NCBI GenBank assembly: GCA_945898195.1
Contig: CAMDHM010000010.1
Coordinates: 1 to 64,000 of the forward strand
Origin: Pseudobacteriovorax antillogorgiicola
GTDB taxonomy: Bacteria; Bdellovibrionota_B; Oligoflexia; Oligoflexales; RGVZ01
Direction of reading: 5' to 3'
DNA length: 64,000 nt
Below, one piece after another: positions 43,414 to 61,230 of this stretch. The position numbers and the translations under genes are program-made. The first letter of the stretch is position 1, and each line of letters starts with the position of its first letter. The notes under the pieces are model-generated. The model was not told the DNA's origin and searched no databases. It was given only the letters and a program-made list of their open reading frames with translations.

Positions 43414-44123
43414 ATCTGCGCGAGCAAAAAGCCATTGTTTTGATGGAGAATGTCTCCAAGAGTTTTGAACTTGGGCGGTCTACTATTGCAGCGCTTCGCA
43501 GTGTGTCAATCGTTGCGATGGCTGCTGAAATGACGGCATTGGTTGGGCCATCTGGTAGTGGCAAGTCAACGATTTTAAATCTAGTCGGGGCGCTCGATCA
43601 TCCCACAGTAGGAAGCATCGTGGTTGCAGGTCAGGATCTCAATGCCCTTGATCAGGATTCGCTGGCAGATTTTCGGAATCGGACCGTTGGTTTTGTTTTC
43701 CAGAATTTTAACTTGATCCCTGTTTTGACGACCCTTGAAAACGTACTGCTCCCCAGTCAGATTGGGAGGTCTGACGAATCAGAGTTGGTGGTGGTGGAGC
43801 GGGCTTGTCATCTACTTGATCGCGTTGGACTAGCAGCCCAAATGAATCAGCCAGTCAACCGGTTGTCTGGGGGGCAAATGCAGCGTGTTTCGTTGGCCCG
43901 CGCCCTAATGAACCAACCAAAAGTAATCTTAGCCGACGAGCCGACAGCGAATCTGGATCATGCTACTTCAGAAAAAGTCTTAGAACTTTTGAAGGCATTG
44001 TGTGTCGAGGAGGAGGCCGCCGTTCTCGTGGCCACCCATGATCCGGCTGTGTTGCCTTATTGCAGCAGGATCATCCGGATGAGAGATGGCCTCATAGTTG
44101 AGTCTGAAGATATTCGCGGGTGA
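43410..44123 (+). CDS. ABC transporter ATP-binding protein, LolD/MacB type
   Basis: 237 residues. Walker A GPSGSGKST, Q-loop VFQNFNLIPVLTTLENV (the Q-loop wording of the LolD/MacB/FtsE class), signature LSGGQMQRVSLARAL, Walker B ILADEPTANLDH and H-loop VATHDP are intact. ATPases of this class work with FtsX-fold permeases and push substrates from the periplasmic side. The partner permease is encoded on the opposite strand, separated by the LolA-like gene. The GTG start overlaps the preceding lipoprotein. Confidence 0.9.
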   Translation: MNLREQKAIVLMENVSKSFELGRSTIAALRSVSIVAMAAEMTALVGPSGSGKSTILNLVGALDHPTVGSIVVAGQDLNALDQDSLADFRNRTVGFVFQNFNLIPVLTTLENVLLPSQIGRSDESELVVVERACHLLDRVGLAAQMNQPVNRLSGGQMQRVSLARALMNQPKVILADEPTANLDHATSEKVLELLKALCVEEEAAVLVATHDPAVLPYCSRIIRMRDGLIVESEDIRG

Positions 44124-44844
44124 AAACCCGGTCTGGAATGATTTTTTTTGTCATTGAAAGTGTGTTCCAGATACTGAATTTTCCTGCCGTAACATTATCA
44201 TCCATACGTAATTTGTCAGGGCGAACGGCGCCGGCCATTTCCCGTTTCGACGTCATCGTTAACGTTTTGAGAAGTTTTCCGGAGATGCCATAGAATTGCG
44301 CCATCACTGGGAATGAATCGGCCGGGCGAACGTAGTAATGAATTTTTGCGTACGGAGCTTCATCATTGATCGCTGTCAGTTCAAGTTTTATGGCGGGCTC
44401 TTTTTCAATAGTTTCTCTGGAAATGATTTTTGGTTCGTATTCTTTTTCTGTGTCTATCTGGAAAAGATCAGCGACGGCAAAGGCGCTATTGCCGATCAGT
44501 TCGCGACGTGAAATCGGAACCACCCGTTTGGAGTCGGGAAGGGTCGAAAAGTAGTTACGCCCAAGGGCCAGCATCCTGCGTCCACGTTCTTCTGCAGGCG
44601 CGATGAATTCCGAGTAAGAACGGCGCCCCGTCGAGGCCAAGACCTTCATGGTGTAAGTGGACGATTTCCCGGTGTTCATTGTGTCCAGCTTCACTCTCAT
44701 TTCACTGCTTTGTGGGGCTCTGATTTCCTCGGCCCGTCGCATGATTTCGCGGGGGTTTTCGGCGGCAAAAAGTGTCCCGGCATGGACGACAAAATAAATT
44801 GTGGCGCCAATGAGCCTCAAATGAAATCGTGTTCGGTGCATCAT
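44092..44844 (-). CDS. LolA-like outer membrane lipoprotein-sorting protein
   Basis: 250 residues. Signal peptide (HLRLIGATIYFVVHAGTLFA) and a LolA-type half-barrel (REIMRRAEEIRAPQSSEMRV, RMLALGRNYFSTLPDSKR, NSAFAVADLFQ, KIHYYVRPADSFPVMAQFYG). It fits the DUF4292-related 'outer membrane lipoprotein-sorting protein' group (PF17131-like), which is often linked to MMPL or FtsX-type exporters and to lipid or aryl-polyene clusters. It would carry a hydrophobic product across the periplasm. The start overlaps the permease stop (TAATG). Its end overlaps the ABC ATPase end by 32 bases. Confidence 0.85.
   Translation of the reverse strand: MMHRTRFHLRLIGATIYFVVHAGTLFAAENPREIMRRAEEIRAPQSSEMRVKLDTMNTGKSSTYTMKVLASTGRRSYSEFIAPAEERGRRMLALGRNYFSTLPDSKRVVPISRRELIGNSAFAVADLFQIDTEKEYEPKIISRETIEKEPAIKLELTAINDEAPYAKIHYYVRPADSFPVMAQFYGISGKLLKTLTMTSKREMAGAVRPDKLRMDDNVTAGKFSIWNTLSMTKKIIPDRVFTREYLQTQL
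44117..44149 (+). terminator. Possible terminator for the exporter ATPase gene
   Basis: CGGGT, a GAAA tetraloop, ACCCG (44117-44130) and then, after a short gap, eight Ts. The stem overlaps the stop of the ATPase and lies inside the convergent LolA-like coding region. The T tract is about eleven bases from the stem, so efficiency is doubtful. Confidence 0.3.
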
Positions 44845-46148
44845 TAGATTTGTCCTCTGAATGCTTTTACAGGTTCAACGCTTGCTGCTTTTTGAGCCGG
44901 TGCCAATGAGGCCAGAACACAGACAATCACAGAACTGGTCAGGATTGCCAGGGATAGTCCCGTGCTTACGCTAGGGTGAAGAACGTAGACGCCACTGCTG
45001 AAGGGGGATTGCAGTGGAATGCCGATGGCCCCCATGGTCGCGACGATTAGGTTGGCTACGATGACACCAGATAATCCACCAATTAGGCCAATCATCGCTC
45101 CTTCGATGCAAAATAAAATTCGGATATCACGTGCGCGGGCTCCGATGGCCATCATGGTCCCGATCTCGACGGTCCGCTCTGCGACGAGAAGAAAAATGAT
45201 ATTGAGAACAGATAGTGCAGATGACATGAACATTAGAAATGAAATGAGTCCAACAACGGAATTCCAAATGGCTTCGATCCGGCGGATAATAACGTCGATT
45301 TGCCACCAGCCTTTTAAGTCGAGCTTCTCGGAATTGGCGCGGGGGCTATTGGTGGCAACCCACGATTCAGCTGCGGCGGGATCATGAAGGCGGACCGAGG
45401 CTTCCGTGATTCGTCCGGGCAGTCGTAAAAGCTGTTGCGCATAGTCAAGGCGTAGGTAAACCGCTCGCTTGGAAAAGCTGGGTAGTGGAACATCGATGAT
45501 TCCACGGACGATACCGTCGACACCATTGAGTCCGCCGGTCACCGTTGTTGTGAGCAACGTCACTTCATCCCCAAGGTCGAGCTTCAGCATTTCCGCAAGG
45601 CCACGGCCAATTACGATAGCCGCTTTTTCCCGTGGATTGATGAATTCGCCGCGGTCAAGAGTTCCCGGACGCATGGGATTAAACAGCGCCGGTGAGACTC
45701 GTAGCTCCAACTCCGGGTGGACGGCTGTTCCAATGAAATAGCGGGTTTGGTCCCGGGCTGAAATAACGCCTTCAAAGTTAAGGCGCGGTGCCACAACGGA
45801 AATTGCGGGATCGGTGGATAAACTCGTCATGAATGGGCTGGATTCGGGAAAGGTCAGGGATTCACTTAGCGATTCACTGTCCTTGAGAAATCCCTCGACA
45901 TGGATCTGAGCGTGACCCAGACCCGTGTCGCTGGCGGCTTGAGCCCAGAGGCTGATCGCCGCGGTGGAGTATCGGCTGGTGACGATGGTTACGCCGGCTG
46001 ACAGCATTACCGTTGCAATTGTTAGCATCGTTCGGCGTCGGTTGCGGGACAGGGAGCGGAAGCCATATTTGATGGAAAACGCCAGGAAGCGGCGGTCCAC
46101 AAGGTTGCCAGAAAATGGCGATGACGATTTTACGGGCACGTTTGTCAT
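44844..46148 (-). CDS. ABC transporter permease, FtsX/LolC-E fold
   Basis: 434 residues. N-terminal helix (TMLTIATVMLSAGVTIV), a large periplasmic domain of the MacB core type (about 60-280), then three helices (VVGLISFLMFMSSALSVLNI, AMIGLIGGLSGVIVANLIVA and LSLAILTSSVIVCVLASLAP). The FtsX signature includes AERTVEIGTMMAIGARARDI. Permeases of this fold do not form a channel; they extract lipids or lipoproteins from the inner membrane for a periplasmic carrier. With the ATPase and LolA-like protein this forms a Lol-like path. It is divergent from the biosynthetic operon. Confidence 0.87.
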   Translation of the reverse strand: MTNVPVKSSSPFSGNLVDRRFLAFSIKYGFRSLSRNRRRTMLTIATVMLSAGVTIVTSRYSTAAISLWAQAASDTGLGHAQIHVEGFLKDSESLSESLTFPESSPFMTSLSTDPAISVVAPRLNFEGVISARDQTRYFIGTAVHPELELRVSPALFNPMRPGTLDRGEFINPREKAAIVIGRGLAEMLKLDLGDEVTLLTTTVTGGLNGVDGIVRGIIDVPLPSFSKRAVYLRLDYAQQLLRLPGRITEASVRLHDPAAAESWVATNSPRANSEKLDLKGWWQIDVIIRRIEAIWNSVVGLISFLMFMSSALSVLNIIFLLVAERTVEIGTMMAIGARARDIRILFCIEGAMIGLIGGLSGVIVANLIVATMGAIGIPLQSPFSSGVYVLHPSVSTGLSLAILTSSVIVCVLASLAPAQKAASVEPVKAFRGQI

Positions 46149-46180: not shown

Positions 46181-46221
46181 TTGCAGTGCATCGGGGAGTT
46201 GGTTACTATTTTAATAATAGT
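46181..46221 (+). promoter_or_regulatory. Promoter and palindromic operator of the biosynthetic operon
   Basis: TTGCAG (46181-46186), a 17-base spacer and TACTAT (46204-46209) form a sigma70-like promoter about 70 bases before the acyl carrier gene. A perfect palindrome, ACTATT-TTAAT-AATAGT (46205-46221), overlaps the -10 box and the likely start site, where a repressor would block transcription. The region is shared with the divergent permease. Confidence 0.5.
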
Positions 46222-46284
46222 CAAAAAAATAGATATTTCCCGCAAGTGCCAGTGTGCTCAAGCCCCCACCTGGAGGAACCTGAC

Positions 46285-46761
46285 GTGCCCAACGCTGTAA
46301 CAGCTTCTGCGATCAAGGCGTCGCCCGCCGACATTGAAGAAAAGGTGATCCAGGTTATCGCTGATTCACTGTGTGTGGACTCGAGCTCAATTTCGTTGAA
46401 ATCAAATTTAATGCGCGATCTTGGCGCCGAGTCGATAGATTTTTTGGACATCATGTTTCGGTTGGAGCGAGAATTTAATATCAAGATTCCCCAGCGCGAG
46501 ATCGAACGCTTGGCCCGTGGTGGACTCGCTCCTGAAGAGTTTGAAGTGAATTCAATCCTTCAAGCAAAAGGCGCCGAGCGCATGCGCATCATCCTTCCCG
46601 AATTGAATGCAGAGGAACTGCGCGCGGGACTTCCTTTGCGCGAATTGCCATCCCTTTTCACCGTTGAAGTTTTCGCCAATATCGTAAAGCGTAAGGTTGC
46701 CAGTGGCGATCTGGATACCTTCGTTCCTATCCACGGCGATGCTCCTAGCACCATGGTTTGA
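46285..46761 (+). CDS. Acyl carrier protein with large insertion
   Basis: 158 residues, about twice the usual size. The phosphopantetheine site is Ser50 in [17 protein letters not shown], matching the DSL-type motif of carrier proteins. The fourth helix, [14 protein letters not shown], is typical. Between helix II and this helix lies a 50-residue insertion (about 78-122). The GTG start has GGAGG eight bases upstream. It is the first gene of the operon and ends one base before the dehydratase fragment. The phosphopantetheinyl transferase needed to charge it is encoded at the end of the same operon. Confidence 0.87.
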
Positions 46762-46762
46762 G

Positions 46763-46885
46763 ATGGGGTTTTTCTACGTCGACCGGATCCACGAGTATGA
46801 ACCAGGCAGGTTCATACGAGGGGTCAAAAACGTAACCCGCAACGAGCCTTTTTTTACTGGCTCCCGGACGGTCGCCGAATTTTGA
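46763..46885 (+). CDS. N-terminal part of a FabZ-like dehydratase didomain (frameshifted)
   Basis: 40-residue open frame that is plainly the start of a hotdog dehydratase: [20 protein letters not shown] followed by NVTRNEPFF, the same order as in FabZ (VDRV...NEPFFQGHFP). After NEPFF the frame runs off into TGSRTVAEF and a stop. The remaining part of the fold is in the next gene in the -1 frame. A T7 run at the break point explains the shift. Either the base count there is wrong, or ribosomes slip, or the gene is a recent frameshift. The ATG begins two bases after the carrier gene stop. Confidence 0.75.
46849..46855 (+). other. T7 slippery run at the dehydratase frameshift
   Basis: Seven consecutive Ts read in the first frame as CC-T TTT TTT-ACT, which is a U UUU UUU heptamer of the X XXY YYZ type. 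A -1 slip here gives [13 protein letters not shown] and continues without a stop into the large downstream frame. One extra T in the genome would have the same effect. No stable hairpin close downstream was noted, so error or simple indel is at least as likely as programmed slippage. Confidence 0.6.
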
Positions 46886-47745
46886 GTCCCACCGTGATAT
46901 CTGAAGCGACCGCCCAGCTTGCATCGTGGCTCAAAATGGTCGGTGCAGATTTTCAAAAACGCCCAGTTTTACTGGCCGATGAACTGACAGTTTATACGGG
47001 CATGGCGGAGCCAGGCGATCAGATTGATATGTTGGTTGAGATTATCGACCACGACGAGGATGTTGTGGTCACCAGAAGTCGTGCCAGCGTTCGAGGAAAA
47101 CCTATTCAGATCAGCACCTGCGGACGCGGTTATTTACTGCCTATGCAGGATTTCGATGACCCCGAAAATATGAGGCGGATGTTCAAACGCCTTTATCGTC
47201 CCGACCTCAAGGATGCAAAGCCTTCCGTGGATCTGAATGCGGCTCAGGGGCTTAAGGCCATTGCTGGTGCAGCGACCTTTGAGTCGCTGCGACTGGTGGA
47301 TGGGATTGTGCTGCATCAGCCAGGCAAGCAAGTTATCTCATTTAAAAACTGCGCATCGTCGGAGCCCTATTTTCGGGATCATTTCCCCCGGAAGCCTGTG
47401 GTTCCCGGTGTTTTGATGCTGAGCATTGTGGGTGAGACTTGCCAGTATCTTGTTAAAGACAAAATTGATTCACCGGTGCGTGGTCGGGCCTTGATTCCGA
47501 CTTGGGTGCGTAATGTTCGTTTGAGAAAGTTTGTCGAGCCAGGCGATCAGTTTATCGTGACGGTTGAAGTTAAAAGTGGTGATACGACGAAACATAACTC
47601 TGATATTGTGGTGAAAGCTGTTGCGACCGCCAATGGTCAGCGCGTGATGCAAGCCGAGTTTGGGTATCGAACGATGTTTGCCACCGACATTGCCCACGGT
47701 GACATTTGGCTGGCTCCACCCCCACCAATTGAGGTCAAGGTCTAA
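46882..47745 (+). CDS. FabZ-like dehydratase didomain, main part
   Basis: 287 residues as an open frame from a TTG that overlaps the preceding stop; the true protein is probably 327 residues from 46763. It contains the rest of hotdog domain 1 ([37 protein letters not shown]) and a full hotdog domain 2 ([36 protein letters not shown]). Domain 1 keeps the catalytic Glu (SPTVISEA) but has Leu for His once the frame is corrected. Domain 2 keeps His (DHFP) but has Ser for Glu. FabZ sites combine His and Glu from opposite hotdogs, so one active site could form in the pseudo-dimer. It would dehydrate 3-hydroxyacyl-ACP. Confidence 0.82.
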
Positions 47746-49088
47746 TGCGGCGTGTTGTCATCACAGGACTTGGCGCGATCTCGCCTCAAGGTAATGACCG
47801 TGAGTCGACCTGGGCCGGGGTGTGTGCGGGCAAGAGTGGCGCGGGACCAATTACGCAGTTTGAGGCATCGACCTGGCCGGTTAAGTTCGCCTGCGAAGTT
47901 CGCGACTTCAAACTTTCCGATGATGCCCTTCTGCCACAGCATCACAAATATTTAAATCGGCCATCAGAATTTGGCTTGGCCGCAGCGCACGAGGCCATGA
48001 TGGATAGCGGGCTTTGTGTGAAGGCTTCTGGCGCGAATGGACCTATAGAAAAATCAATTGCGTGCGATCCAGAATTGTTTGGAATCAGTATCGGAGCCGG
48101 CATTGGTGCTGTGAGCCCAAAAGAATTAGCGTCGATGCTGCGCAGTTTGGCGGCTGATGGAAACTACGCGGAATTAGGCCGTGTGGTGCAGGAACAGACT
48201 GAATCACGGATTTTTTTGCGAAATCATCCTGGAACCTTAGCCTATCTCTTATCCGCGCGGTGGAATGCCCAAGGGCCGGTGACCACCGTTCATACGGCTT
48301 GTGCCTCGAGTGGCCAGTCCATTGGTCAGGCGATGCTGCAAATCCAGCGTGGCGAGGCCGACGTGATTCTGGCCGGTGGAGCAGACTCACTGGCCGGTGA
48401 ATTGCTGCTCGCTGGTTTTTGTTTACTCGGTGCCCTGAGTCGGCGAAACGACGATCCAAAGAAAGCATCGCGTCCCTTTGACCGGGATCGCGATGGTTTT
48501 GTGGCCAGCGAAGGTGCCGCCATGCTGGTGCTGGAAAGTCGTGATCGGGCCGTTGCGCGCGGCGCAAAAATTTATGCAGAAATTTGCGGTTTTGGAGAGA
48601 CCGAAAGTGCCTTTAGGATCACAGATTTGCCGCCTGATGGGCGGGGCACCGTGGAGGCCATGCAGCAAGCCATTGCCATGGCAGGATTAACGCCTGCCGA
48701 GGTTGGCTACGTCAATGCACATGGAACTTCCACGGAGGTTAATGACCGCGTTGAGTGTCATGCGGTTCAGCGGGTCTTTGGCGAGGAACGCACCGACCTG
48801 TGTGTTTCATCAACCAAGTCGACGACGGGGCACTTGATCTCGGCGGCAGGCGCCTTGGAACTGATGTTTTGTGTCTTGGCGTTGCGCGATCAAAAAGTTC
48901 CCCCGACAATAAATTTAGAAAATCCGATTTCAGGTTGTCTGTTTGATTTTGTTCCGCATCATGAAAAGGCTTTCAGTCGAGAAAAACCTTTACGCGCGGC
49001 ACTTTCGAACTCCATCGGTTTTGGTGGTTCCAATTCCGCGGTGCTCGTTAAAAGTCACGAGGATTCGCAGGCAGAGGTGGGGCCATGA
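47745..49088 (+). CDS. 3-oxoacyl-ACP synthase, type II (active KS)
   Basis: 447 residues of the FabF class. Active site: Cys186 in HTACASSGQS, His326 in NAHGTSTEVND, Lys358 in STKSTTGH and His363. GGADSLAGE and FGFGGSN-like end (SIGFGGSNSAVL) complete the fold. It condenses malonyl-ACP with the growing chain. The ATG overlaps the dehydratase stop (TAATG), and the stop overlaps the next KS-like start. It is paired with a degenerate KS, as in type II polyketide and aryl polyene systems. Confidence 0.92.
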   Translation: MRRVVITGLGAISPQGNDRESTWAGVCAGKSGAGPITQFEASTWPVKFACEVRDFKLSDDALLPQHHKYLNRPSEFGLAAAHEAMMDSGLCVKASGANGPIEKSIACDPELFGISIGAGIGAVSPKELASMLRSLAADGNYAELGRVVQEQTESRIFLRNHPGTLAYLLSARWNAQGPVTTVHTACASSGQSIGQAMLQIQRGEADVILAGGADSLAGELLLAGFCLLGALSRRNDDPKKASRPFDRDRDGFVASEGAAMLVLESRDRAVARGAKIYAEICGFGETESAFRITDLPPDGRGTVEAMQQAIAMAGLTPAEVGYVNAHGTSTEVNDRVECHAVQRVFGEERTDLCVSSTKSTTGHLISAAGALELMFCVLALRDQKVPPTINLENPISGCLFDFVPHHEKAFSREKPLRAALSNSIGFGGSNSAVLVKSHEDSQAEVGP

Positions 49089-50395
49089 AAATGCGTCGCG
49101 TGGCGATCACGGGAATCGGCATTTCCACAGCCGTTGGTGATGATCTTCTCACCAACATTTCCAGTTGGCGGGAAGGACGGACTCATTTTGGGGCTGTCGC
49201 TGCGGCTTCAGGGTTGCTCGGTACGGCAGTAAAATATGCAGGGGAATGTCCGGAGCCCCCAGCATCGCGCCTTCCAGACCGGAAGGTAAAAAAGATTCTA
49301 ACGCGCAAGGACGTGATTGGTTTGGTGACGGCCCTTGAGGCGGCCTCAGATGCCGGCATCAGACCTGGAACTCAAAATTTTGATCCCGAGCGATTTGGCA
49401 TGTACGTCGGCGCAGGAAGCACGCAAATAAAAGACCTCACGCCTTACTTCCCCCTTGTTCGGCAGTGTGTTCAGGGCGGGGTTTTCGATAGTTTGAAATT
49501 TGGATCTGAAATGATGGATCTGGTGAACCCGATGGTGGTTCTTCAGACGCTGATGAACAACACACTTTGCTTTGCGGCGATCGCCTTGGACATTCGTGGC
49601 GTGAACTCGAACTTTATGGATTTCAATGTTAGCGGTTTGCGTGCGGTGGGTGAGGCGTTTCGCAGCGTCCAAACAGGCCGTGCGGATTTATGCCTTGCTG
49701 GCGGTGTTGCGTCACCCGTTGAACCGTTTCATGTCGGAACGGGAGTGAACAGTGGCTACCTGGCCCGCAGTGCTGAATTGTCGTGGAGCGCCGCCGAAAT
49801 TCTGCGGCCTTATGACCGCGAACGGTGCGGAACGGTGCTGAGCGAAGGGGCGGCGTTCCTAATGCTTGAAGATGAAGGCCACGCCGTGTCTCGCGGTGCT
49901 AGGATTTTAGGCTATATCGATGGGTACGGGGCGGGTAGTGACGGTCCTGTAGAATTCATGCATGAAGAGTCGGCTCCCGGTTTATCCGGATCCGTTAAGC
50001 GGGCTTGCCGTGAGGCGGGAGTAGACGTGGAGGGCAAGCTTTTTGCGCCGGACCTGATTATTGGTCACGGAAATGGGGTCATGCGCTCGGACTCGGTTGA
50101 ACTCAATGCTTACTTATCGACGATCGCGCCGGGCACACCTTTGGCATCAATTAAAGCCGTTACCGGAGAGTTGGGTGAGGCGGCAGGTGTTGCGTCGTGC
50201 ATCGCTGCGGTTGATGCCTTGTTACAAAATTCCGTGCCGCCAACCATTAACTTCTCTGGCAATTTTGCCGCTGACGATCCACACGCATTTTCCATTTCAC
50301 CTTTAGCGCAAGCATGTCCCAGCACGCGTCAGGCCCTGATCACTCAGCGCAGCATTTTGGGAATTTCATGCAGCCTTGTGATTTCCAAATCATGA
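49085..50395 (+). CDS. Ketosynthase-like chain-length factor (inactive KS)
   Basis: 436 residues, FabF fold throughout (RRVAITGIGISTAVGDD at the start; LAGGVASPVEP in the core). The active-site Cys is replaced: MDFNVSGLRA has Asn181 where TACASGL has Cys. The second catalytic His is also lost (AVTGELGEAAG: Glu362 instead of His), while His328 in GHGNGVMRSD stays. This is the pattern of a KS-beta/chain-length factor that binds the active KS and sets product length. Coupled to the KS by ATGA. No malonyl transferase is present in the cluster. Confidence 0.87.
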   Translation: MKMRRVAITGIGISTAVGDDLLTNISSWREGRTHFGAVAAASGLLGTAVKYAGECPEPPASRLPDRKVKKILTRKDVIGLVTALEAASDAGIRPGTQNFDPERFGMYVGAGSTQIKDLTPYFPLVRQCVQGGVFDSLKFGSEMMDLVNPMVVLQTLMNNTLCFAAIALDIRGVNSNFMDFNVSGLRAVGEAFRSVQTGRADLCLAGGVASPVEPFHVGTGVNSGYLARSAELSWSAAEILRPYDRERCGTVLSEGAAFLMLEDEGHAVSRGARILGYIDGYGAGSDGPVEFMHEESAPGLSGSVKRACREAGVDVEGKLFAPDLIIGHGNGVMRSDSVELNAYLSTIAPGTPLASIKAVTGELGEAAGVASCIAAVDALLQNSVPPTINFSGNFAADDPHAFSISPLAQACPSTRQALITQRSILGISCSLVISKS

Positions 50396-51534
50396 CGGCC
50401 AAAAACTGCATCGTCATCACCGGGGCTAATGGATTTATTGGTTCCGAAATTCTGCGTGCCCTTCGTGAACGGGGCGTGCCGGGGTCTCGCGTGATTGCCG
50501 TGATTCGAGCCAAGCACGGACTTTCGCCAAGGCAAAGGTTGGACCAGGTTTTTTCTCGTTGGGTGCGCGCAGGGGCTGAACGCCATGTCGCAGGTTTGGC
50601 GCAATTCGGGGATGCAATCCAATGTGTGGAATGGAATGATTTAGAAGAGGCACTGAAGGCTCAATCTGACGCGAGCCTGATTCACTGTGCGGCGGACACG
50701 GCCTTTGATTTGCCAATTGATGAGGCGCGCCGCATCAATGTTGAACTTACCCGTGGGTTGATCAAGTCAGTCCAATCTTCTGGAATTGCTTCAATTAGCC
50801 GATTTATTTATGTGTCAACGGCTTATGTTTCAGGGAAAAAGCGCGGACGTATCTTGGAAGAGGAGGTCGCCGCGGAGGTCAGATTAGCCTCAGATTTTCA
50901 TAATACCTACGAGCAGTCCAAGTGGGAAGCCGAGCAGGTTGTTCGCAAATCTGGATTGCCTTGGACCATTGTTCGGCCAGCGATTGTCGTAGGGGACAGT
51001 CGTAGTGGTTTCACTCTGCATTTTCGCGTTATTTATTCGGTGATCCGTTTGTGGCTTCGTGATGTCGTGCCACGGGCTCCGGTTGCTCGTGATGCGCTCA
51101 TTGATATTGTTCCAAGTAATTATGTCGCCGGTTCAATTTTGCGTCTGTGTGATCTTCCGATCGATCGAATTGTGGGGCGCACCCTGCATCTTTGTTCTGG
51201 GGAATTAGCCCCTGGTCCGGTTGATGTGATGGCTGCTGCTGGGCGCGCCTTTGGGCGCAAGCCATTGCCACTCAGCCCACCATGGGTGCTTCGTGTGCTT
51301 TTGTCGCGCCCTGTTTTGGCGTTCTGCAATCATTCGATGCGCGAGATACTGACGACCTTAGCCTGGCACGTGCCTTATCTTGGTTCTCGCCAACGGGTTT
51401 TCGATACATCCGTTGCCAAGGCCGTTCTGGGCGGTGATTTTGGTACCAGTCCCGGTTTTGATGAGTACGGCGATCGCCTATTTGACTATTGCGCAAAGTC
51501 GTCCTGGGGGCACCGATGTTCAACCTTGACTTGA
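50392..51534 (+). CDS. Extended SDR, acyl/thioester-reductase-like
   Basis: 380 residues. NAD(P)-binding GANGFIG (11-17), HCAADTAFD, FIYVSTAYVSG and the catalytic NTYEQSK (Tyr173, Lys177). The word order HCAA...YVSTAYV is typical of the NAD_binding_4 group: fatty-acyl reductases and thioester reductase domains. It may release the chain as an aldehyde or alcohol; an epimerase-like role is possible. The ATG overlaps the chain-length factor stop (ATGA). It overlaps the fabG-like start by 19 bases. Confidence 0.78.
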   Translation: MTAKNCIVITGANGFIGSEILRALRERGVPGSRVIAVIRAKHGLSPRQRLDQVFSRWVRAGAERHVAGLAQFGDAIQCVEWNDLEEALKAQSDASLIHCAADTAFDLPIDEARRINVELTRGLIKSVQSSGIASISRFIYVSTAYVSGKKRGRILEEEVAAEVRLASDFHNTYEQSKWEAEQVVRKSGLPWTIVRPAIVVGDSRSGFTLHFRVIYSVIRLWLRDVVPRAPVARDALIDIVPSNYVAGSILRLCDLPIDRIVGRTLHLCSGELAPGPVDVMAAAGRAFGRKPLPLSPPWVLRVLLSRPVLAFCNHSMREILTTLAWHVPYLGSRQRVFDTSVAKAVLGGDFGTSPGFDEYGDRLFDYCAKSSWGHRCSTLT

Positions 51535-52271
51535 GTGGAAAAAAAGTCTGGATTACTGGTGGCAGTCGCGGCCTTGGCAAGGCTATGGCCATCGCTTTCG
51601 CGAAGGCTGGCGCCGACGTCGCCATCAGCTGGCGTTCTGGCGAGGAGGCAGGGCGTGCCGTTGCGCAAGAGGTCGAGGCCTTGGGTCGAATGGCACTGAG
51701 CCTGCAATGCGATGTCACCGATGTTGGCGCCGTCGAGCAAACTCGTGATCGGATTGAAGCTGCCTTTGGTGGCATTGATGTTCTCGTGAATAATGCCGGT
51801 GTTGTCAGGGACAATTTATTCATGATGCTCGAAGATAAAGACTGGGACGAGGTTTTTGCGACGAACGTAATGGGAACGGTCCATTGTTCGCGGGCAGTGA
51901 TTCGCGGCATGATGATGAAACGTTGGGGGCGAATCATCAACATCTCGTCCATAGCGGCATCTCGCGGCGGGCGTGGGCAGAGTAATTATGCAGCATCAAA
52001 AGGGGCTATTGAGAGCCTGACTCAAAGTCTGGCCGTGGAATTGGCATCTCGAAATATCCTCGTTAATTGCATCGCCCCCGGAGTGATTGAGACCGACATG
52101 AGTCGCGAAGTCATCGGACTTGCAAAGGAATTAATCCTAAATCATCAATTGCTAAAACGCTTTGGTCGTCCCGAGGATATTGCAGCATGGGCTGTCATGT
52201 TAGCCTCAGATCATTCCGCCTTCATGACCGGACAAATTGTGACGGTCGATGGTGGTTATAAACTCGGATAA
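51516..52271 (+). CDS. 3-oxoacyl-ACP reductase, FabG type
   Basis: 251 residues, classical SDR. TGGSRGLG cofactor loop (14-21), NNAGVVRD, Ser in NISSIAASRG, Tyr158 and Lys162 in NYAASKGA. LVNCIAPGVIETDM and TVDGGYKLG close the fold as in FabG. Reduces the beta-keto group left by the KS. The ATG follows GGGGG five bases upstream; a TTG at 51489 would add nine residues. It is in the operon's core; a 174-base gap follows. Confidence 0.9.
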   Translation: MFNLDLSGKKVWITGGSRGLGKAMAIAFAKAGADVAISWRSGEEAGRAVAQEVEALGRMALSLQCDVTDVGAVEQTRDRIEAAFGGIDVLVNNAGVVRDNLFMMLEDKDWDEVFATNVMGTVHCSRAVIRGMMMKRWGRIINISSIAASRGGRGQSNYAASKGAIESLTQSLAVELASRNILVNCIAPGVIETDMSREVIGLAKELILNHQLLKRFGRPEDIAAWAVMLASDHSAFMTGQIVTVDGGYKLG

Positions 52272-52445: not shown

Positions 52446-54176
52446 ATGGAATTTTCTGCGCATCCAGATCAGGCATTGAAGTGCCTTCTTGTTTCGCCAA
52501 AGTTTCCCCCCCATAGCTATTGGAACTATGTCGCTGCGGCCGAGTTGATCAATGCGAAATCGCCGAGCCCGCCATTAGGATTGATTACGGTTGCGGCCCT
52601 GTTGCCTCAGCACTGGGAATTCAAACTGATGGACTTGAATGTCCAGGATCTTAGCGAAGAGATGTGGAGTTGGGCGGACCTCATCTGTGTTGGTGGGATG
52701 CTTCCCCAGCAGCAAGGTTTATTGGAGATCGTTAAGCGCGCCAAGTCCACCGGAAAATTTGTCGTGATCGGCGGGCCTGATCCATCGAGTCAGCCTGACT
52801 TGTATGCTGAAGCCGACGTAACGGTCGTGGGTGAGGCAGAGAATTTAATCGGAGTGTGGCTCGATTCTTGGCGTGCCGGTAATCCACGTGGTGTATTTAA
52901 AACGGACAAGAAGCCTGACGTCTCAACCACTCCTATTCCACGCTTTGATTTGCTTGATTTCAGCAACTATGTCGAAGTTGGTTTGCAGTATTCTCGGGGC
53001 TGTCCATTTAACTGTGAATTCTGCGACATCATCGAACTTTACGGGCGTGTGCCCCGGACGAAGTCTCCGGAGCAGGTTCTTGCTGAACTTCAGACGATTT
53101 ACGACTGTGGCTACCGCGGGTCCATTTATTTTGTGGACGATAATTTCATCGGTAACAAACGCAATGTAAAAAAACTTTTGCCCCACGTTACCGATTGGCA
53201 AAAGAGCCATAAATATCCGTTCTTTTTTGCAACTGAAGCATCGATGAACCTGGGCGATGATGTGAAGCTTTTAGAATTGATGCAGGCGGCTGATTTTCGC
53301 TTCGTCTTTTTGGGTATTGAGACGCCGGATCAAGACGTCTTGATGCAAACGCAGAAGAGCCAAAATACGATGCATCCGATTGCCGAGCGAGTAAACATGC
53401 TTTACAAGCACGGCATTGTCGCTCTCGGCGGATTTATCATGGGGTTTGATTCGGAACGCTCCGGAATGGATGTCCGAATGACCAAGTGTATTGAAGAGAC
53501 TGCGATTTGCATGGCGACCGTGGGCCTTCTTGTTGCGCTTCCCAATACGCAGTTAACGAAGCGGTTGCAGAAAGAGGGCCGGCTTCTTGATTCTCGGGGG
53601 ATTATTGTGCCGCGGGAACAGAAGGAATACCGCTTGGTGATCCACTCGGCTGTGGCGGGCGACCACACCGTTTCCGGTTTGAACTTTATTACGACGCGTC
53701 CCACACATGAAATTTTGCGCGAATATCGCAACGTTATTGCAAACATTTATTCGCCAGAATCTTATTTCGCACGTGCGATTGAGACCACCAAGCGACTACG
53801 GACAAAGAGCCTTCATGTCCCGTCTTGGTTTGAGTGGAAACGGAGCCTGTTGGGCTTCTGGAATCTTACGAAGTTCATGACGCGTGATCCCGACCTGCGT
53901 TGGCACTATTGGGGAAGCATGGGAAAAATGCTGCGTTATGGGCCCGCACGGTTTGATGCTGGTATGCGCCTGATTGGGATTTTTACGCATTTTTACCCGC
54001 ATTCAAAATATGTCTTAGAGCAAATTGACAAGCGTCTCGCGAATCCAGACCACTACGAGCATTCGTATAACAAGGATGTGGATGCCGGTGTGATTCATGA
54101 AGCAGCAGCCATGGCGAACCGCTCCTCCCCAAACGTGACCCGTGTAACCCCGTCCCATGGAGTGGCAGCATCATGA
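52446..54176 (+). CDS. B12-binding radical SAM enzyme (DUF4070 type)
   Basis: 576 residues. N-terminal cobalamin-binding fold (CLLVSPKFPP; LMDLNVQDLSEE; VVIGGPDPSSQP), radical SAM domain with the cluster motif in SRGCPFNCEFCDIIE (Cys186, Cys190, Cys193), then a C-terminal region of the kind found with the hopanoid methylase-like HpnP/HpnR group. In known members the B12/SAM pair methylates unactivated carbons. The ATG has GAGGAG seven bases upstream. The gap before it has a pyrimidine-rich run (about 52305-52328) but no clear terminator. Substrate likely the operon's lipid product; unproven. Confidence 0.85.
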   Translation: MEFSAHPDQALKCLLVSPKFPPHSYWNYVAAAELINAKSPSPPLGLITVAALLPQHWEFKLMDLNVQDLSEEMWSWADLICVGGMLPQQQGLLEIVKRAKSTGKFVVIGGPDPSSQPDLYAEADVTVVGEAENLIGVWLDSWRAGNPRGVFKTDKKPDVSTTPIPRFDLLDFSNYVEVGLQYSRGCPFNCEFCDIIELYGRVPRTKSPEQVLAELQTIYDCGYRGSIYFVDDNFIGNKRNVKKLLPHVTDWQKSHKYPFFFATEASMNLGDDVKLLELMQAADFRFVFLGIETPDQDVLMQTQKSQNTMHPIAERVNMLYKHGIVALGGFIMGFDSERSGMDVRMTKCIEETAICMATVGLLVALPNTQLTKRLQKEGRLLDSRGIIVPREQKEYRLVIHSAVAGDHTVSGLNFITTRPTHEILREYRNVIANIYSPESYFARAIETTKRLRTKSLHVPSWFEWKRSLLGFWNLTKFMTRDPDLRWHYWGSMGKMLRYGPARFDAGMRLIGIFTHFYPHSKYVLEQIDKRLANPDHYEHSYNKDVDAGVIHEAAAMANRSSPNVTRVTPSHGVAAS

Positions 54177-55387
54177 AGATTGGATCCATTATGGCCGCAG
54201 TGGCCTTAGGAATGACGGCTGGGTTTTCGGCCGATTTGTTTGCCGTTACATCGGAGCCCGTCACAGAGCCTAGCGCAGAGCCAACGTCCCGCGTCCGCCC
54301 GGAGGTCATCTACCGGATGTCGTCACTCGGTCGGCGCACGAGCGCTGCCTTTCACCGTGCATCTGAAGATAAAGACTATATCGATCAGCTGTATGCCACC
54401 TTGCGTTTCGAATCGACGTGGGAATACCAAGATTCGGCGGTTTTTGAGGCCGGCATCCGGACGCCGCGATCTGCACCAAACGGCCCCTTAGAAGTAATCA
54501 TCCAACAGGCCTTCATTGAATCCCAGATAGCCGGCGCCGGTCTGACTGTGACCGCGGGAAAAAAGGTTGAATTTGATGGGCCTGGTATCTTGATGAATCC
54601 TTCCGATCTGCTGAATGAAGACAAGGATCTAATTGATCCGCTTTACCAGCGCGAAGGCCGGGTCTTTACGCGAATCTCTGCATCTGGCAGCAGTTGGAAG
54701 TTGGGCGTCGGATATATCCCGTTGCGCGCAGCGATGGCGGGAAGGGGCAAGGCTTGGCTGCAAATCCACGCGCAGTTTTGGGGCGCTGATTTGCGCCTTC
54801 AGATGACGTCTCAGAAGGAGGACGGCATCACCACCGGATTTTCTGCATCCCGATTCATTATGGCGGACCGCCTTGAAGTCCATTTAGATGGCCGGTATCA
54901 AGCCAACCAGCGCAATGTTGCATCCCAGCGCGAGCGAGCCTATTCGACGTTGAAGCCGGCTGATCCGAGTTTATTTGCCCTCGCAGGGGGCCGATTTATT
55001 GTGGAAGGCAAGAGGTCCGTGACCATTGAGTATATGCAGAACCAAAGTGGCTTGACCTCGGCAGAATTTCGGGACTTCTTCGCCTATATTCGGTCCCTTG
55101 ACGATTCCAACGGGGATAAGAAGCCTGACTCAAGGTTTCTGGGCCGTCGTTATGCATTTGTTGCATTTCACGACGAAGATTCGATTCCAAAGACCCGCCT
55201 TGGTGCATCCGTGTTGCAAAATCTTGATGATCAGAGCATTTTTGCCAATATTGAGTTGCGCCGCGCTGTATCGCCGTTAATTGCCGTGGCCCTCACGCCG
55301 ACCTTCTTTACAGGGAAGTCGGGGAGCGAGTTTGGCGAAATGCCGTTTTCATCGATTATTTATCTGCAGCTGACGGGCAGGATTTAA
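54173..55387 (+). CDS. Predicted outer-membrane beta-barrel protein of the biosynthetic operon
   Basis: 404 residues. Signal peptide (KIGSIMAAVALGMTAGF), a Ser/Glu/Pro linker, then barrel-type alternating strands (QLYATLRFESTWEYQDSAVF; LTVTAGKKVEFDGPGILMNP; SSIIYLQLTGRI at the end). AGKKVEFDGPGILMNPSDLL recalls outer-membrane proteins seen with LolA-like/FtsX or MMPL exporters (DUF1302-like). The ATG overlaps the radical SAM stop (ATGA), so barrel and enzyme are made together. It may receive the product from the LolA-like carrier. Confidence 0.68.
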   Translation: MKIGSIMAAVALGMTAGFSADLFAVTSEPVTEPSAEPTSRVRPEVIYRMSSLGRRTSAAFHRASEDKDYIDQLYATLRFESTWEYQDSAVFEAGIRTPRSAPNGPLEVIIQQAFIESQIAGAGLTVTAGKKVEFDGPGILMNPSDLLNEDKDLIDPLYQREGRVFTRISASGSSWKLGVGYIPLRAAMAGRGKAWLQIHAQFWGADLRLQMTSQKEDGITTGFSASRFIMADRLEVHLDGRYQANQRNVASQRERAYSTLKPADPSLFALAGGRFIVEGKRSVTIEYMQNQSGLTSAEFRDFFAYIRSLDDSNGDKKPDSRFLGRRYAFVAFHDEDSIPKTRLGASVLQNLDDQSIFANIELRRAVSPLIAVALTPTFFTGKSGSEFGEMPFSSIIYLQLTGRI

Positions 55388-55395
55388 GTTTTATA

Positions 55396-56118
55396 ATGTT
55401 CCAACCTGAAGTCCACCGTGAGATTCATGAATTTTTTTCCGGTGGTGTCCGTTGCCTACTGCTGCCGGATTCAGCGGGCTTCGAGGGGCTGGATCCTCAC
55501 GCTTTAGAAGCGGCATTATCGCCACAGAACCGTCAGATTCTGAAGTCCATTACGAACCCAGCGCGGCGTAGCGAATTTCTTCGGACACGATTTCTTGTTC
55601 GCTTGGGCGCGGGCCTAACTTCAGACCCTCAGCGTGATTCGGAGGGTCTAATTCAATGGCCCGTTGAATTGTGCGGATCAGTGAGCCACAGCCTGGGGAA
55701 TGTGCTCGTCGCGACGAGTCAACGAACATCGTATGTTTCTATTGGTGTTGATATGGAACGACCATCGCGAATTTCTGACAAACTCGCTGAAAAAATATGC
55801 ACCGATTTTGAACGAAATCTTATTGCCACTGGGGCCGTATCTTTGGCCGAGGTTTTTTCGGCAAAGGAAGCGCTGTTCAAGTGTCATTATTCTTTGGGGC
55901 GCCGCCGATTTTGGTTTCTCGATGCTGAAATTTCAGCCGTCAAGGTTCACTTGGGGACGAAAAAATTGGACCTTCGCGTCCTGATCGATACCAGTGCCAT
56001 AACCCCGGCCAATACCCTCACCAGGGTTGACATCCTGGCCATGCCGATTGGCGAATTCATTTTGGCCCTGGCCCAGATTCCAACGACATCCAAGTCCATG
56101 GACCATGTTGACGGTTAG
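55396..56118 (+). CDS. 4'-phosphopantetheinyl transferase, Sfp/EntD type
   Basis: 240 residues. GSVSHSLGNVLVA, Asp119 and Glu121 in SIGVDMERP, and FSAKEALFKC (Lys157, Glu158, Lys162) are the metal and CoA binding motifs of the family. It transfers phosphopantetheine from CoA to the carrier protein serine. A dedicated transferase at the end of the operon is a strong sign that the cluster acts as a stand-alone assembly line. The gene lies eight bases after the barrel gene. Its stop codon is inside a 7-bp hairpin. Confidence 0.88.
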   Translation: MFQPEVHREIHEFFSGGVRCLLLPDSAGFEGLDPHALEAALSPQNRQILKSITNPARRSEFLRTRFLVRLGAGLTSDPQRDSEGLIQWPVELCGSVSHSLGNVLVATSQRTSYVSIGVDMERPSRISDKLAEKICTDFERNLIATGAVSLAEVFSAKEALFKCHYSLGRRRFWFLDAEISAVKVHLGTKKLDLRVLIDTSAITPANTLTRVDILAMPIGEFILALAQIPTTSKSMDHVDG

Positions 56119-57064: not shown

Positions 57065-57300
57065 CGGCCGCTCCCCTTAGCCCTTAGATTCCCATCTCAC
57101 ACGAACGCTCGAGTAGATCTGCAATGGGTGTGCCTAACCCGGTGATTTACCCAAGCAGGGCAACGCGTGTATGGCGCTACTCGGGGAAAGAAAACATAAA
57201 GTTCAATTAAACAAGCTAGTTATATAGTTTCCTTAACTTATTCGAAAATCCTCCGATGGCAAACGAGTGGTTTGGGAGAGGGATGGGGGGGCCGCCTATA

Positions 57301-60300
57301 ATGCTGACGACGGAAAGAAAAGAATCATGGGTCATGGTGGTCGTAAATGCTCCATTATTGGCGGCTCTTGTGGTTTCGTGTTCGTCTAACAATATGGTTT
57401 CATCTCGGAATGGAAATCAATGGGACAAGGGCGTGGTGCCCATCGTCGGTACGGACACTAAAATAGAATCTGGTGGGTCAATTTCACTTGCGTGGACGTC
57501 ACCGGAGGCAGAGGCCGTCGTTAGCGGAGATGTCAACTTTCAAGTTAGTGCTCAGAATCTTCCTGCGGGCGGCAGTGTCGAGTATTTCGCGGATGGCAAT
57601 CCAATCAGTGGAGCACTGAGTATTGGCAAGGTGGATCCGACGAATACATTCCAACTCCACTCAGTCTATGACGCTCCTGATGGCCGGATGGTGTTGAAGG
57701 CTGTGGCACGGGACGCGTTCGGAAAAATTATCGGTCAGTCCCCGGATCGTGTGATTTATGTACTAAATAAGGCTTCCGAAAAAACGGAAATTCTAACCCC
57801 ATCTGGCGCTGTCCTGACCGGGATGGGCAAGATTCAGTACCGCGGTCCACGCTATGAATCCGCGATTCGGTCGCCAGCAACTATATTAAGGGGTGCACAA
57901 ACAGACGTCTATTTGGATGGGCAGTTAGTCGGAGTAAACGACCCGTATTATCATCCCGAGGTCATTCTAAAAAATCCGATGGAATTCACGTTTGATACGA
58001 CTGGTTACCGTGACGGATTGCATCGCATTACGTTGAACATTCATGGTTTCGATTACTGCACCTGCGGCAAAGCCGAAAAACTTGGTGTTGCGCACGTTGA
58101 GGTTGAAATTAAGAACCCTAAATCCTACGTCGACTTGGAACCACAATGGTCCGAGTTTTGGATGCGACCCGGTGAAAAAAAATCATTTGGATCCGTTGAT
58201 GCAATCTATGGCGACGGTACGCGGATCAATGTTCCCGCATCGGGAAAGGTTCTAGCAGACGAGGACTTTCTTACTCCTAAAAAGTATTCATGGCATTTTC
58301 GTGATTCCACTAAGGCGAGCATAGAGACAGGTTCCCTAACGTTGGAAGGCACGGGTAGTGCAGGCCCAAATGTGGCTTGGCTGGATCAGCTTGACTCCGA
58401 GGGTAGGTTTCTTCCTCTCGTCAATCAGGTTGAGGCGACGACTTTCGTCGATGGTTCGTCTTCCATGTGGAGCAACATCATGGGCCAATCAGGAGGAATA
58501 GTGTTTGCGGCGCAGCCTGATTTTCAGCAGGGCGCCCACTTCATGGCTTATTCAAAAGTAGACGCTGCAAATAAAGGGGTTCGGCTGATTGAAATGAAGC
58601 CGAAGGCCTACGCTGGGGGACCCGTGTATACCAGCAGTTATCTTGCTGGAAGCAGTATTGAAACCGGAACCTGGTTCCATCAGAAGGTTGATTTCAGCCG
58701 AGGTGTCGTGCAAAGGGATTTTGCAACGCCGGTCTTCGGGAAATTTTGGGTGGTGGGAGACGCCGAGCCTACGGTTTGGAGCCGATTTACTACAAATCCA
58801 TCAGCGAACGGCGATAAGGGTCCGCAATTTGACTCCTATCAACCGCCAAATTTAACCAGCGAGTGGGTGTCCGGCGTATTTGCTTCCGGCAGGTCAAAGT
58901 TTTCTAATGTCCGATTTGTGGCGAAGCCAAATTTCTTTAGTAACGATTCAGCGGTCGCCACGGTTGATTCAAATGGTGTGATAACCGCTGTTGGCAAAGG
59001 CGTCAGTGAATTAACCGTCGAACTCGGTATTCGCCGACGCGTCGTTCGTGTCGTCGTTGATAATACGGTGGGTCTTTCACACTATTCAAAACAAGGTGGC
59101 GTTCTTACGGCCTATGACAGTGCAAAATCTCTAATTCCACGGACGCTATTCGGACTTGATAGCAATGTTGCCACCGAATTTCTCGACTCAGGAAAGCTTG
59201 GGTTATTTAAGGCCGCTGGTATCAACTCGACTCATGATGGCATACCCATTGATCCGAACAACTCCGCGTATCCCAATACGACCGAGGGGGGCAATGCGTT
59301 CTGCCGAGACGTCGCTGCAAACATTGCGCTTGGTAATGCAAAGCTTGCGGCGCTGGGTATGAACTCCTGGCCAGCAGGAGATGGTCTGTTCTGGGGGGGC
59401 ACATTGACATCCCGTAGTTGGGCAACCCAAGGCCTACAATGTGTAATGTCGGCATTGAAGGCCTCCGGGCGCGCCGTAAATTTCACCCTAATGGATGAGG
59501 TTAGGAATTCATTCGTAAGTAACCCGGGGTTTCAATCCATTGTCGATGCTATTGCGGCGACTCCTGGAGGTCATATTCCTTGGGATTGGCACACTTTTTT
59601 TACAACGACTCCAGAGGTTGGTGCGACATGGTCCGCGCCAGGAGTGGCGGAAGGTTTTGCGCCGGAGTGGTATTACGGGTCCGATTTAATTTACGGAAAT
59701 ATGGTTGATGTTGCCCTAGGTATGGATGCCCTGGCTCGCAAACATAGCCCCGCGATGAAACTCCAGTCAGGAAATACATTTCCACGGAACACGCTAGTGG
59801 GAGTTATCGGGGACTGGTGGATTCCGATCGTCAAAGGGGAGAATAACCACAGGCAAGAAGGCATACTCGAGGCACATATTCGCTCAATTCCTGCAATGAT
59901 GTGGAACGCGATTGGGCAGGGAAATGTCGCACTTCGAATGTATGCAATGGGTCCAAAAGGGTACAGTGGATACGAAAAATATGAGATCACGGCCAATGAT
60001 GTCCAGGCACCGATTCATCCGATCACATGGCGCACTCATGCGTGGCAGGCGATGGGCTCCGCATCATCCCTCATTGGGCTCCTCGAAGAGGACCTTCTTC
60101 AGCAGCCCATCAGTGCCGTGGCAGCAGGAGGGAGTAGTCAGAGGGCCGGGGAGCGGAGGCAGTTCATTCCCCGGGAAGACATCACCGAGAATCCCCCGCA
60201 AGTGCAACCGATAACGACCTTTAATTTCGGAAACGTGAAGACCTATGCTCGGCAAGGTCCGCACACCAGACTTTTGATCGGAGTTAATTTAAATGACTAT

Positions 60301-61230
60301 ACAGAGAAGGTAAGATTCAACCTTGAGCCTTATCTTTATTCTGGTGGATCATTGCTTCGCTATCGCCAGTTTGGCGCTTCAGTTCATTCAGATTTGATCA
60401 AGGCCTCAAACTTTGACGAGATAATGCTAAAGGCTGGGGAAACCGTCATCTATAAATTTGCGGATTCACCGGCGCGCATACCGCCAGCTGTGAAGATTCT
60501 TTCGCCTGTTGCCGATGCGGTGCTTACAGGTCGCGTCAATATTGCGCTCGACGTACATGCCCTCTCGGGGGTTTCGAAAATTGAATACCTGGTTGAGAAT
60601 GATAAATTTTCGGAAGAGGGCGGTGAGGCACTTCAAGCCACCCTCGATACGTCTACCGTTCAACCAGACCAGTGGCGTGCCCTTATTGTTCGGGTGACCG
60701 ACAACGCAGGTCACGTGAATCAGGCTCGTATCGGATTTAAACGGATTCAACCAAAAATTTCTGCCCAGTGGATTGTCGATAATCAGGATTCTGGGTATTC
60801 GGAACACGGTCAGGGCAGTGCCTTTGGGCCTGGGCTTACCACGTGGGACGTCTTTCATGCTTATCTCAGTAACTTTCGGTTCATCAGCTATGGAAACGGT
60901 GCCAGCAAAAACAATTATGCGCAGTGGGAATTACCAAATTTGTCTCAGGATACCTATAAAGTATATGCCACGTTTGGAGAGACTTGGGGAAGCCGCAAGG
61001 CAACTTATGAAGTCTTCGATGGCGATACATCCCTTGCGATCGTTGAAGTCAATCAGGTCATGAATGGATGGTTAAAAACCTGGGATCCGGTCAACAAAGC
61101 TCAAGGCTGGGAGCCGCTGGGTAACTTTCCAGTCAAGTCTGGAACGCTTCGGGTGCGGCTCTATCAGCCACTCGTCTTTCCTGACAAGTTAAATGCAGAT
61201 GCGGTTCTCGTACGACTTGAAAAACCATGA
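57301..61230 (+). CDS. Very large lipoprotein with Ig-like, barrel-like and golvesin-type domains
   Basis: About 1309 residues. Signal segment with lipobox VVSC (MVVVNAPLLAALVVSCSS). Then beta domains, a BIG2-type Ig-like repeat (about 547-590: NDSAVATVDSNGVITAVGKG), a central region (about 600-1050) that reads like a glycoside-hydrolase TIM barrel (LFKAAGINSTHDGIP; FTLMDEVRNS; DWWIPIVKGENNHRQEGI), another Ig-like domain (PAVKILSPVADAVLTG) and a C-terminal golvesin/Xly-type binding domain (WIVDNQDSGYSEHG; YAQWELPNL; NADAVLVRLEKP). It may bind or cleave polysaccharide outside the cell. ATG 57301 is chosen because GGGGGG precedes it; ATG 57256 is in frame. Confidence 0.72.
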   Translation: MLTTERKESWVMVVVNAPLLAALVVSCSSNNMVSSRNGNQWDKGVVPIVGTDTKIESGGSISLAWTSPEAEAVVSGDVNFQVSAQNLPAGGSVEYFADGNPISGALSIGKVDPTNTFQLHSVYDAPDGRMVLKAVARDAFGKIIGQSPDRVIYVLNKASEKTEILTPSGAVLTGMGKIQYRGPRYESAIRSPATILRGAQTDVYLDGQLVGVNDPYYHPEVILKNPMEFTFDTTGYRDGLHRITLNIHGFDYCTCGKAEKLGVAHVEVEIKNPKSYVDLEPQWSEFWMRPGEKKSFGSVDAIYGDGTRINVPASGKVLADEDFLTPKKYSWHFRDSTKASIETGSLTLEGTGSAGPNVAWLDQLDSEGRFLPLVNQVEATTFVDGSSSMWSNIMGQSGGIVFAAQPDFQQGAHFMAYSKVDAANKGVRLIEMKPKAYAGGPVYTSSYLAGSSIETGTWFHQKVDFSRGVVQRDFATPVFGKFWVVGDAEPTVWSRFTTNPSANGDKGPQFDSYQPPNLTSEWVSGVFASGRSKFSNVRFVAKPNFFSNDSAVATVDSNGVITAVGKGVSELTVELGIRRRVVRVVVDNTVGLSHYSKQGGVLTAYDSAKSLIPRTLFGLDSNVATEFLDSGKLGLFKAAGINSTHDGIPIDPNNSAYPNTTEGGNAFCRDVAANIALGNAKLAALGMNSWPAGDGLFWGGTLTSRSWATQGLQCVMSALKASGRAVNFTLMDEVRNSFVSNPGFQSIVDAIAATPGGHIPWDWHTFFTTTPEVGATWSAPGVAEGFAPEWYYGSDLIYGNMVDVALGMDALARKHSPAMKLQSGNTFPRNTLVGVIGDWWIPIVKGENNHRQEGILEAHIRSIPAMMWNAIGQGNVALRMYAMGPKGYSGYEKYEITANDVQAPIHPITWRTHAWQAMGSASSLIGLLEEDLLQQPISAVAAGGSSQRAGERRQFIPREDITENPPQVQPITTFNFGNVKTYARQGPHTRLLIGVNLNDYTEKVRFNLEPYLYSGGSLLRYRQFGASVHSDLIKASNFDEIMLKAGETVIYKFADSPARIPPAVKILSPVADAVLTGRVNIALDVHALSGVSKIEYLVENDKFSEEGGEALQATLDTSTVQPDQWRALIVRVTDNAGHVNQARIGFKRIQPKISAQWIVDNQDSGYSEHGQGSAFGPGLTTWDVFHAYLSNFRFISYGNGASKNNYAQWELPNLSQDTYKVYATFGETWGSRKATYEVFDGDTSLAIVEVNQVMNGWLKTWDPVNKAQGWEPLGNFPVKSGTLRVRLYQPLVFPDKLNADAVLVRLEKP

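Follow-up and report, generated by a model that had tools for sequence, protein, structure and literature searches.

The analysed window is a 64,000-nucleotide stretch (positions 1 to 64,000, forward strand) of contig CAMDHM010000010.1 from the Pseudobacteriovorax antillogorgiicola assembly GCA_945898195.1. It carries a fatty-acid-type operon with a radical SAM gene in its downstream part, with transport-type genes on its upstream side:

43410-44123, + strand: ABC ATPase, likely the permease partner (ABC_tran, 111 bits)
44092-44844, - strand: LolA-like outer-membrane lipid/lipoprotein carrier, divergent neighbour (LolA_like, 117 bits)
44844-46148, - strand: FtsX/MacB-type permease, divergent neighbour, possible exporter
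46186-46761, + strand: acyl carrier protein, ACP (PP-binding, 38.5 bits)
46882-47745, + strand: FabA/FabZ-like dehydratase, DH (FabA, 67.9 bits)
47745-49088, + strand: ketosynthase, KS, with the catalytic Cys
49085-50395, + strand: chain length factor, CLF, KS-like with Asn at the Cys position
50401-51534 (alternative start 50314), + strand: thioester-reductase-type SDR, TER (NAD_binding_4, 130 bits)
51489-52271, + strand: FabG-type ketoreductase
52446-54176, + strand: B12-binding/radical SAM/DUF4070 protein, HpnP-like but not HpnP, the gene under study (rSAM)
54173-55387, + strand: secreted-looking protein with no family match, ATGA-coupled to rSAM
55396-56118, + strand: 4'-phosphopantetheinyl transferase, PPTase (ACPS, 46.5 bits)

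The genes preceding rSAM follow the order ACP-dehydratase-KS-CLF-TER-FabG, and the PPTase gene lies beyond the 54173-55387 gene. A KS with its Cys, a KS-like CLF without it and an ACP together make this a KS/CLF type II synthase. The nearest PDB match of TER is the MxaA reductase. The true start of the dehydratase probably lies upstream of 46882, as the corresponding open reading frame in the same-genus genome G001 encodes 327 aa. By eye, a 14-residue stretch in the annotated dehydratase is followed by Ser at the position of the FabZ catalytic Glu, which may point to an unusual active site. The FtsX permease is not exclusive to the cluster, as genome G003 carries FtsX-LolA genes at a site where the cluster is absent. 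After the cluster, positions 57256-61230 encode a secreted-looking protein of 1324 aa that contains a bacterial Ig domain (Big_7); no further domain was found in it. No Rfam match was obtained within the window.

The rSAM gene is preceded by GAGGAG 5' of its ATG at 52446, a motif that is kept in G001 despite a differing spacer. Its stop codon (54174-54176) overlaps the ATG of the downstream gene at 54173 in an ATGA arrangement, as the earlier note had described. That note had also called the coupled gene a barrel, and this identity could not be confirmed: the N-terminus of the product resembles a signal peptide, the protein has no match in Pfam, NCBIfam, the PDB or plasmids, and its single-sequence AlphaFold model has a pLDDT of only 30. 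On the upstream side, FabG and rSAM are separated by 174 bp (437 bp in G001), so the tie to the preceding genes rests on position and strand only. No terminator-like or promoter-like match was found in this spacer. A dispersed repeat (GTCATCCTGAGCG...GAAGGATCC) occurs in the G001 FabG-rSAM spacer and near the cluster of G002, another genome of the genus (L019 400-800, L234 7561-7848); its absence from the window spacer indicates that this spacer is labile.

The encoded protein of 576 aa has three Pfam domains, namely B12-binding (41.5 bits, cut-off 32.1), Radical_SAM (55.5 bits, cut-off 29.5) and DUF4070 (77.2 bits, cut-off 22), and its CxxxCxxC motif reads CPFNCEFC. It therefore combines the N-terminal B12-binding domain and CxxxCxxC radical SAM domain of cobalamin-type radical SAM enzymes, and has the complete three-domain architecture of HpnP-like proteins. 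The AlphaFold model, computed with 31 relatives, has a pLDDT of 89, and the best solved structures retrieved with Foldseek are MgmA, OxsB, AprD4, TsrM, CysS and TokK. MgmA, TsrM, CysS and TokK are methylases, whereas OxsB performs a ring contraction and AprD4 a dehydration on the shared fold, with no methylation. Sixty-one near-invariant positions are common to the HpnP sequences, the clade of the window protein (described below) and nearly all other aligned sequences; they include the three cluster cysteines and M85, Q88, G109 and G110 of the B12 domain. From the domain score, the fold and the positions in common with the B12-dependent HpnP, the protein is predicted to bind cobalamin. In line with this prediction, the host genome encodes MetH and methylmalonyl-CoA mutase and hence uses B12; no cobalamin riboswitch was found in it. 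Over the 124 codons that can be compared with G001, the dN/dS ratio of rSAM is 0.012, lower than for any other gene of the operon; by this measure the gene is under strong purifying selection and kept in two species.

The family assignment separates this protein from the named radical SAM families that it was compared with. Scored with the NCBIfam models of HpnR, HpnJ, BchE, the ladderane proteins and others, it reaches 19 to 73 bits, with cut-offs of at least 251. Identity with HpnR (TIGR04367, 50.9 bits against a curated cut-off of 650), HpnJ (TIGR03471, 50.6 against 577.6) and the ladderane B12/radical SAM protein (TIGR04072, 62.9 against 360) was accordingly rejected. HpnP itself was anchored on a Bradyrhizobium copy (L174) whose adjoining genes read from sequence as HpnN and HpnE; the window protein is 34% identical to it. 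A phylogeny of 60 proteins separates HpnP at 100/100 and places the window protein with its homologue from G017, an order-level relative, and planctomycete proteins in a clade that is also supported at 100/100. Within this clade, a sister relation between the window and G017 proteins is neither favoured nor rejected (topology test, p = 0.32). Grouping with HpnP is rejected by the AU test (p = 0.004), and squalene-hopene cyclase (SHC, PF13243) has no match in the window's genome, which is 89.5% complete. The phylogeny against HpnP that the earlier note had proposed as a check therefore speaks against an identity with hopanoid methylases, which the note had given as an example of this enzyme class. 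The protein belongs instead to the HpnP-like proteins in the three-domain sense, a widespread and uncharacterised group (PMC10697835). Judged by domain architecture, the characterised protein closest to that of the window is HpnP, a methylase (PMC10697835).

In the window's own phylum, the enzyme occurs in three of 58 genomes, those of the window, G001 and G017. The KS and CLF of these genomes form one subclade of the KS/CLF tree, and within the phylum only the three genomes of this subclade have rSAM. A FabG-ACP-DH-KS-CLF-TER cluster without a radical SAM gene recurs in the order to which the window belongs, in about ten genomes (L209-L219), and several of these clusters adjoin a gene that reads as FabI. 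The G001 contig ends inside rSAM and the G017 copy lies on a different contig from its KS/CLF, so that, within the phylum, adjacency is seen in two genomes that are close relatives. An absence of the cluster from G002 was withdrawn, as that contig ends just after ACP-DH; the missing rSAM there may be a matter of assembly. In G017 (L031 7245-10852), the gene after the KS/CLF pair belongs to the GH3 family (154 bits) and is not a thioester reductase.

A second setting for the clade is found in another phylum. The best matches of rSAM in a scan of genome contigs are planctomycete proteins (51-53%), and in one Aporhodopirellula genome the gene lies divergent from that of a 3035-aa protein with NAD_binding_4, KS, AT, ACP, KR and DH domains. 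Among 199 genomes drawn from the family of this Aporhodopirellula genome, here termed Pirellulaceae, the rSAM clade is present in 22. A TER-KS-mid-AT-ACPs-KR-DH gene is divergent from rSAM in 14 of the 15 wide neighbourhoods, and TER is next door in 17 of the 22 loci when short flanks are counted. The region labelled "mid" is again KS-like, with Glu at the KS Cys position, so that this protein holds both a KS and a CLF-like domain. The giant polyketide synthase (PKS) thus reads TER-KS-CLF-AT-ACPs-KR-DH, with TER first, and fuses nearly the activities of the window operon. Close orthologues of the PKS occur in 20 of the 199 genomes, rSAM in 22 and both in 17 (Fisher p = 1.7e-17, kinship ignored); three genomes have the PKS without rSAM and five have rSAM without a close PKS. 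In one locus (G167), the genes are co-directional in the order PKS-Rieske-FabG-PPTase-rSAM, with rSAM last, and in two genomes (G177 and G253) rSAM has no TER-PKS neighbours and a more distant TER-KS synthase lies elsewhere. The recurrence of the KS/CLF tie in Pirellulaceae, along with the three Pfam domains, bears out the earlier proposal of a B12-radical SAM enzyme tied to a fatty-acid-type operon.

Two further observations concern the planctomycete loci. A Rieske ring-hydroxylase-type oxygenase and FabG follow the TER-PKS (L220 4311-5600, L205 1096-2256), so the planctomycete product is probably also oxidised. In a sequence titled Candidatus Kuenenia stuttgartiensis (L034), a clade member adjoins a PDDEXK_2 transposase-family gene; the other genes on it resemble those of other planctomycetes rather than anammox genes, and the title may be misassigned.

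The window rSAM thus belongs to an HpnP-like clade whose members mostly adjoin an acyl-chain synthase with KS, CLF, ACP, KR, DH and TER. One such clade is common to two assembly lines of unlike build and like content in two phyla, which is most simply explained by an enzyme that tailors a chain built by such a line and released from it reductively. We consider it very likely that rSAM is linked to the TER-released KS/CLF lipid synthase as a tailoring enzyme. Given this link, C-methylation is the probable reaction, since HpnP and most of the characterised fold neighbours are methylases; it is held less firmly, because OxsB and AprD4 show other radical chemistry on the same fold. For both together, a tailoring enzyme of the TER-released KS/CLF lipid that C-methylates its chain, we estimate a probability of about 0.6. 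Points that weigh against this reading are the 174 bp between FabG and rSAM, the adjacency seen in only two close genomes of the window's phylum, the Pirellulaceae genomes with just one of PKS and rSAM, the KS/CLF/TER clusters that lack the enzyme, and the missing cobalamin riboswitch.

In the proposed pathway, the PPTase would arm the ACP, and ACP, KS/CLF, FabG and the dehydratase would assemble a chain that is partly reduced or a polyene, as suggested by an operon without an enoyl reductase. The 4Fe-4S cluster of rSAM and SAM would generate a 5'-deoxyadenosyl radical, which would take a hydrogen from an unactivated chain carbon. Quenching of the carbon radical by methylcobalamin would then leave a C-methyl branch. 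TER would release the chain as an aldehyde or alcohol, and rSAM may act before or after this release. The neighbouring genes may export the product.

The strongest competitor keeps the pathway link and changes the chemistry, with rSAM using a radical mechanism to cyclise, contract, couple or dehydrogenate the chain and adding no methyl group, as in OxsB, HpnJ, BchE or AprD4. Two of these, OxsB and AprD4, rank with the best matches by fold, although MgmA, TsrM, CysS and TokK from the same set are methylases. A double-bonded chain would be a good radical acceptor, and cyclisation has been proposed for the B12 radical SAM protein of Kuenenia (PMC2649909), whereas the nearest characterised relative by domains, HpnP, is a methylase (PMC10697835). 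On balance, we regard such chemistry as unlikely, though worth keeping in view.

It is less probable still that a mobile HpnP-like gene landed by chance 3' of the operon and functions in a different pathway. Relatives at 43-45% occur as solo genes, often plasmid-borne, with examples on Methylocystis, Bradyrhizobium and Komagataeibacter plasmids; the 174 bp gap, the variable and repeat-bearing spacer in G001 and the related KS/CLF/TER clusters without rSAM would also fit such an arrival. These plasmid and solo relatives, however, fall in other supported clades and have no KS/TER neighbours. The earlier note had said that its reading would fall if the gene proved a close orthologue of an unrelated, chromosomally mobile radical SAM gene, and the comparison with plasmid and genome relatives does not favour this. 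Among 82 loci of similar proteins outside the clade, two show any KS-like match in the flanking sequence retrieved and TER is seen at none, whereas the rSAM clade adjoins TER-KS synthases in another phylum. Strong purifying selection on rSAM in two species also argues against a chance arrival. As a separate observation, an Elusimicrobia genome contains a tandem pair of HpnP-like radical SAM genes (L093 9908-13801). A role as hopanoid methylase, whether HpnP or HpnR, is highly implausible for rSAM despite the three domains and 34% identity in common with HpnP, given the AU result, the HpnR score and a genome, 89.5% complete, in which SHC had no match.

Returning to rSAM as a C-methylating tailoring enzyme, a broader proposal can be put forward tentatively, at slightly below even odds: the clade would be a dedicated partner of TER-released KS/CLF synthases in two phyla, on a type II line in one and a type I line in the other, making an undescribed lipid, either a mid-chain C-methylated or a radical-cyclised aldehyde or alcohol. 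HpnP underlies the 2-methylhopane biomarker, which is why HpnP-like proteins matter, and for one HpnP-like clade the substrate can now be narrowed to a concrete hypothesis through its recurrent biosynthetic partner. Moreover, the clade is present in planctomycetes, and cultures exist for some of these, making deletion and lipid mass spectrometry possible; the culturable Aporhodopirellula aestuarii, for example, carries the rSAM/PKS pair (L035).

The earlier note had considered late C-methylation novel for a KS/CLF cluster, and this holds in part. In Kuenenia, a B12 radical SAM gene is already known among the genes of a type II FAS cluster (PMC2649909), although it comes from another family. 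Pfa-like secondary lipid synthases are likewise on record for planctomycetes, in a paper that does not mention radical SAM (PMC3098273). Both precedents temper the novelty. We found no earlier report of the rSAM clade with TER-KS-CLF synthases, or of the planctomycete PKS/radical SAM pair, in the open literature, most subscription papers being outside this scope.

Compared with known systems, the window enzyme resembles HpnP and the HpnP-like proteins (PMC10697835) in its three domains and the 61 common positions; it differs from HpnP in its separate clade, in the 34% identity, in a context without hopanoid genes or a detected SHC, and in having a KS/CLF/TER synthase as partner. The Kuenenia ladderane cluster (PMC2649909) likewise combines a B12 radical SAM gene with genes of a type II fatty-acid-type system, but the protein is of the other family (TIGR04072), and the window gene has TER and CLF in its company. 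The Pirellulaceae partner resembles PfaA of the pfa-like synthases (PMC3098273) in KS, AT, ACPs, KR and DH; it begins with TER, unlike PfaA, carries its KS and its CLF-like region on a single polypeptide, and scores 540.8 bits on a partial sequence against the PfaA model (TIGR02813, cut-off 1010). Aryl polyene clusters have in common with the window the separate KS/CLF, ACP, DH and KR proteins and a LolA-like protein nearby, whereas the window genes were annotated without an aryl-starter ligase or MMPL exporter and include TER and the radical SAM enzyme.
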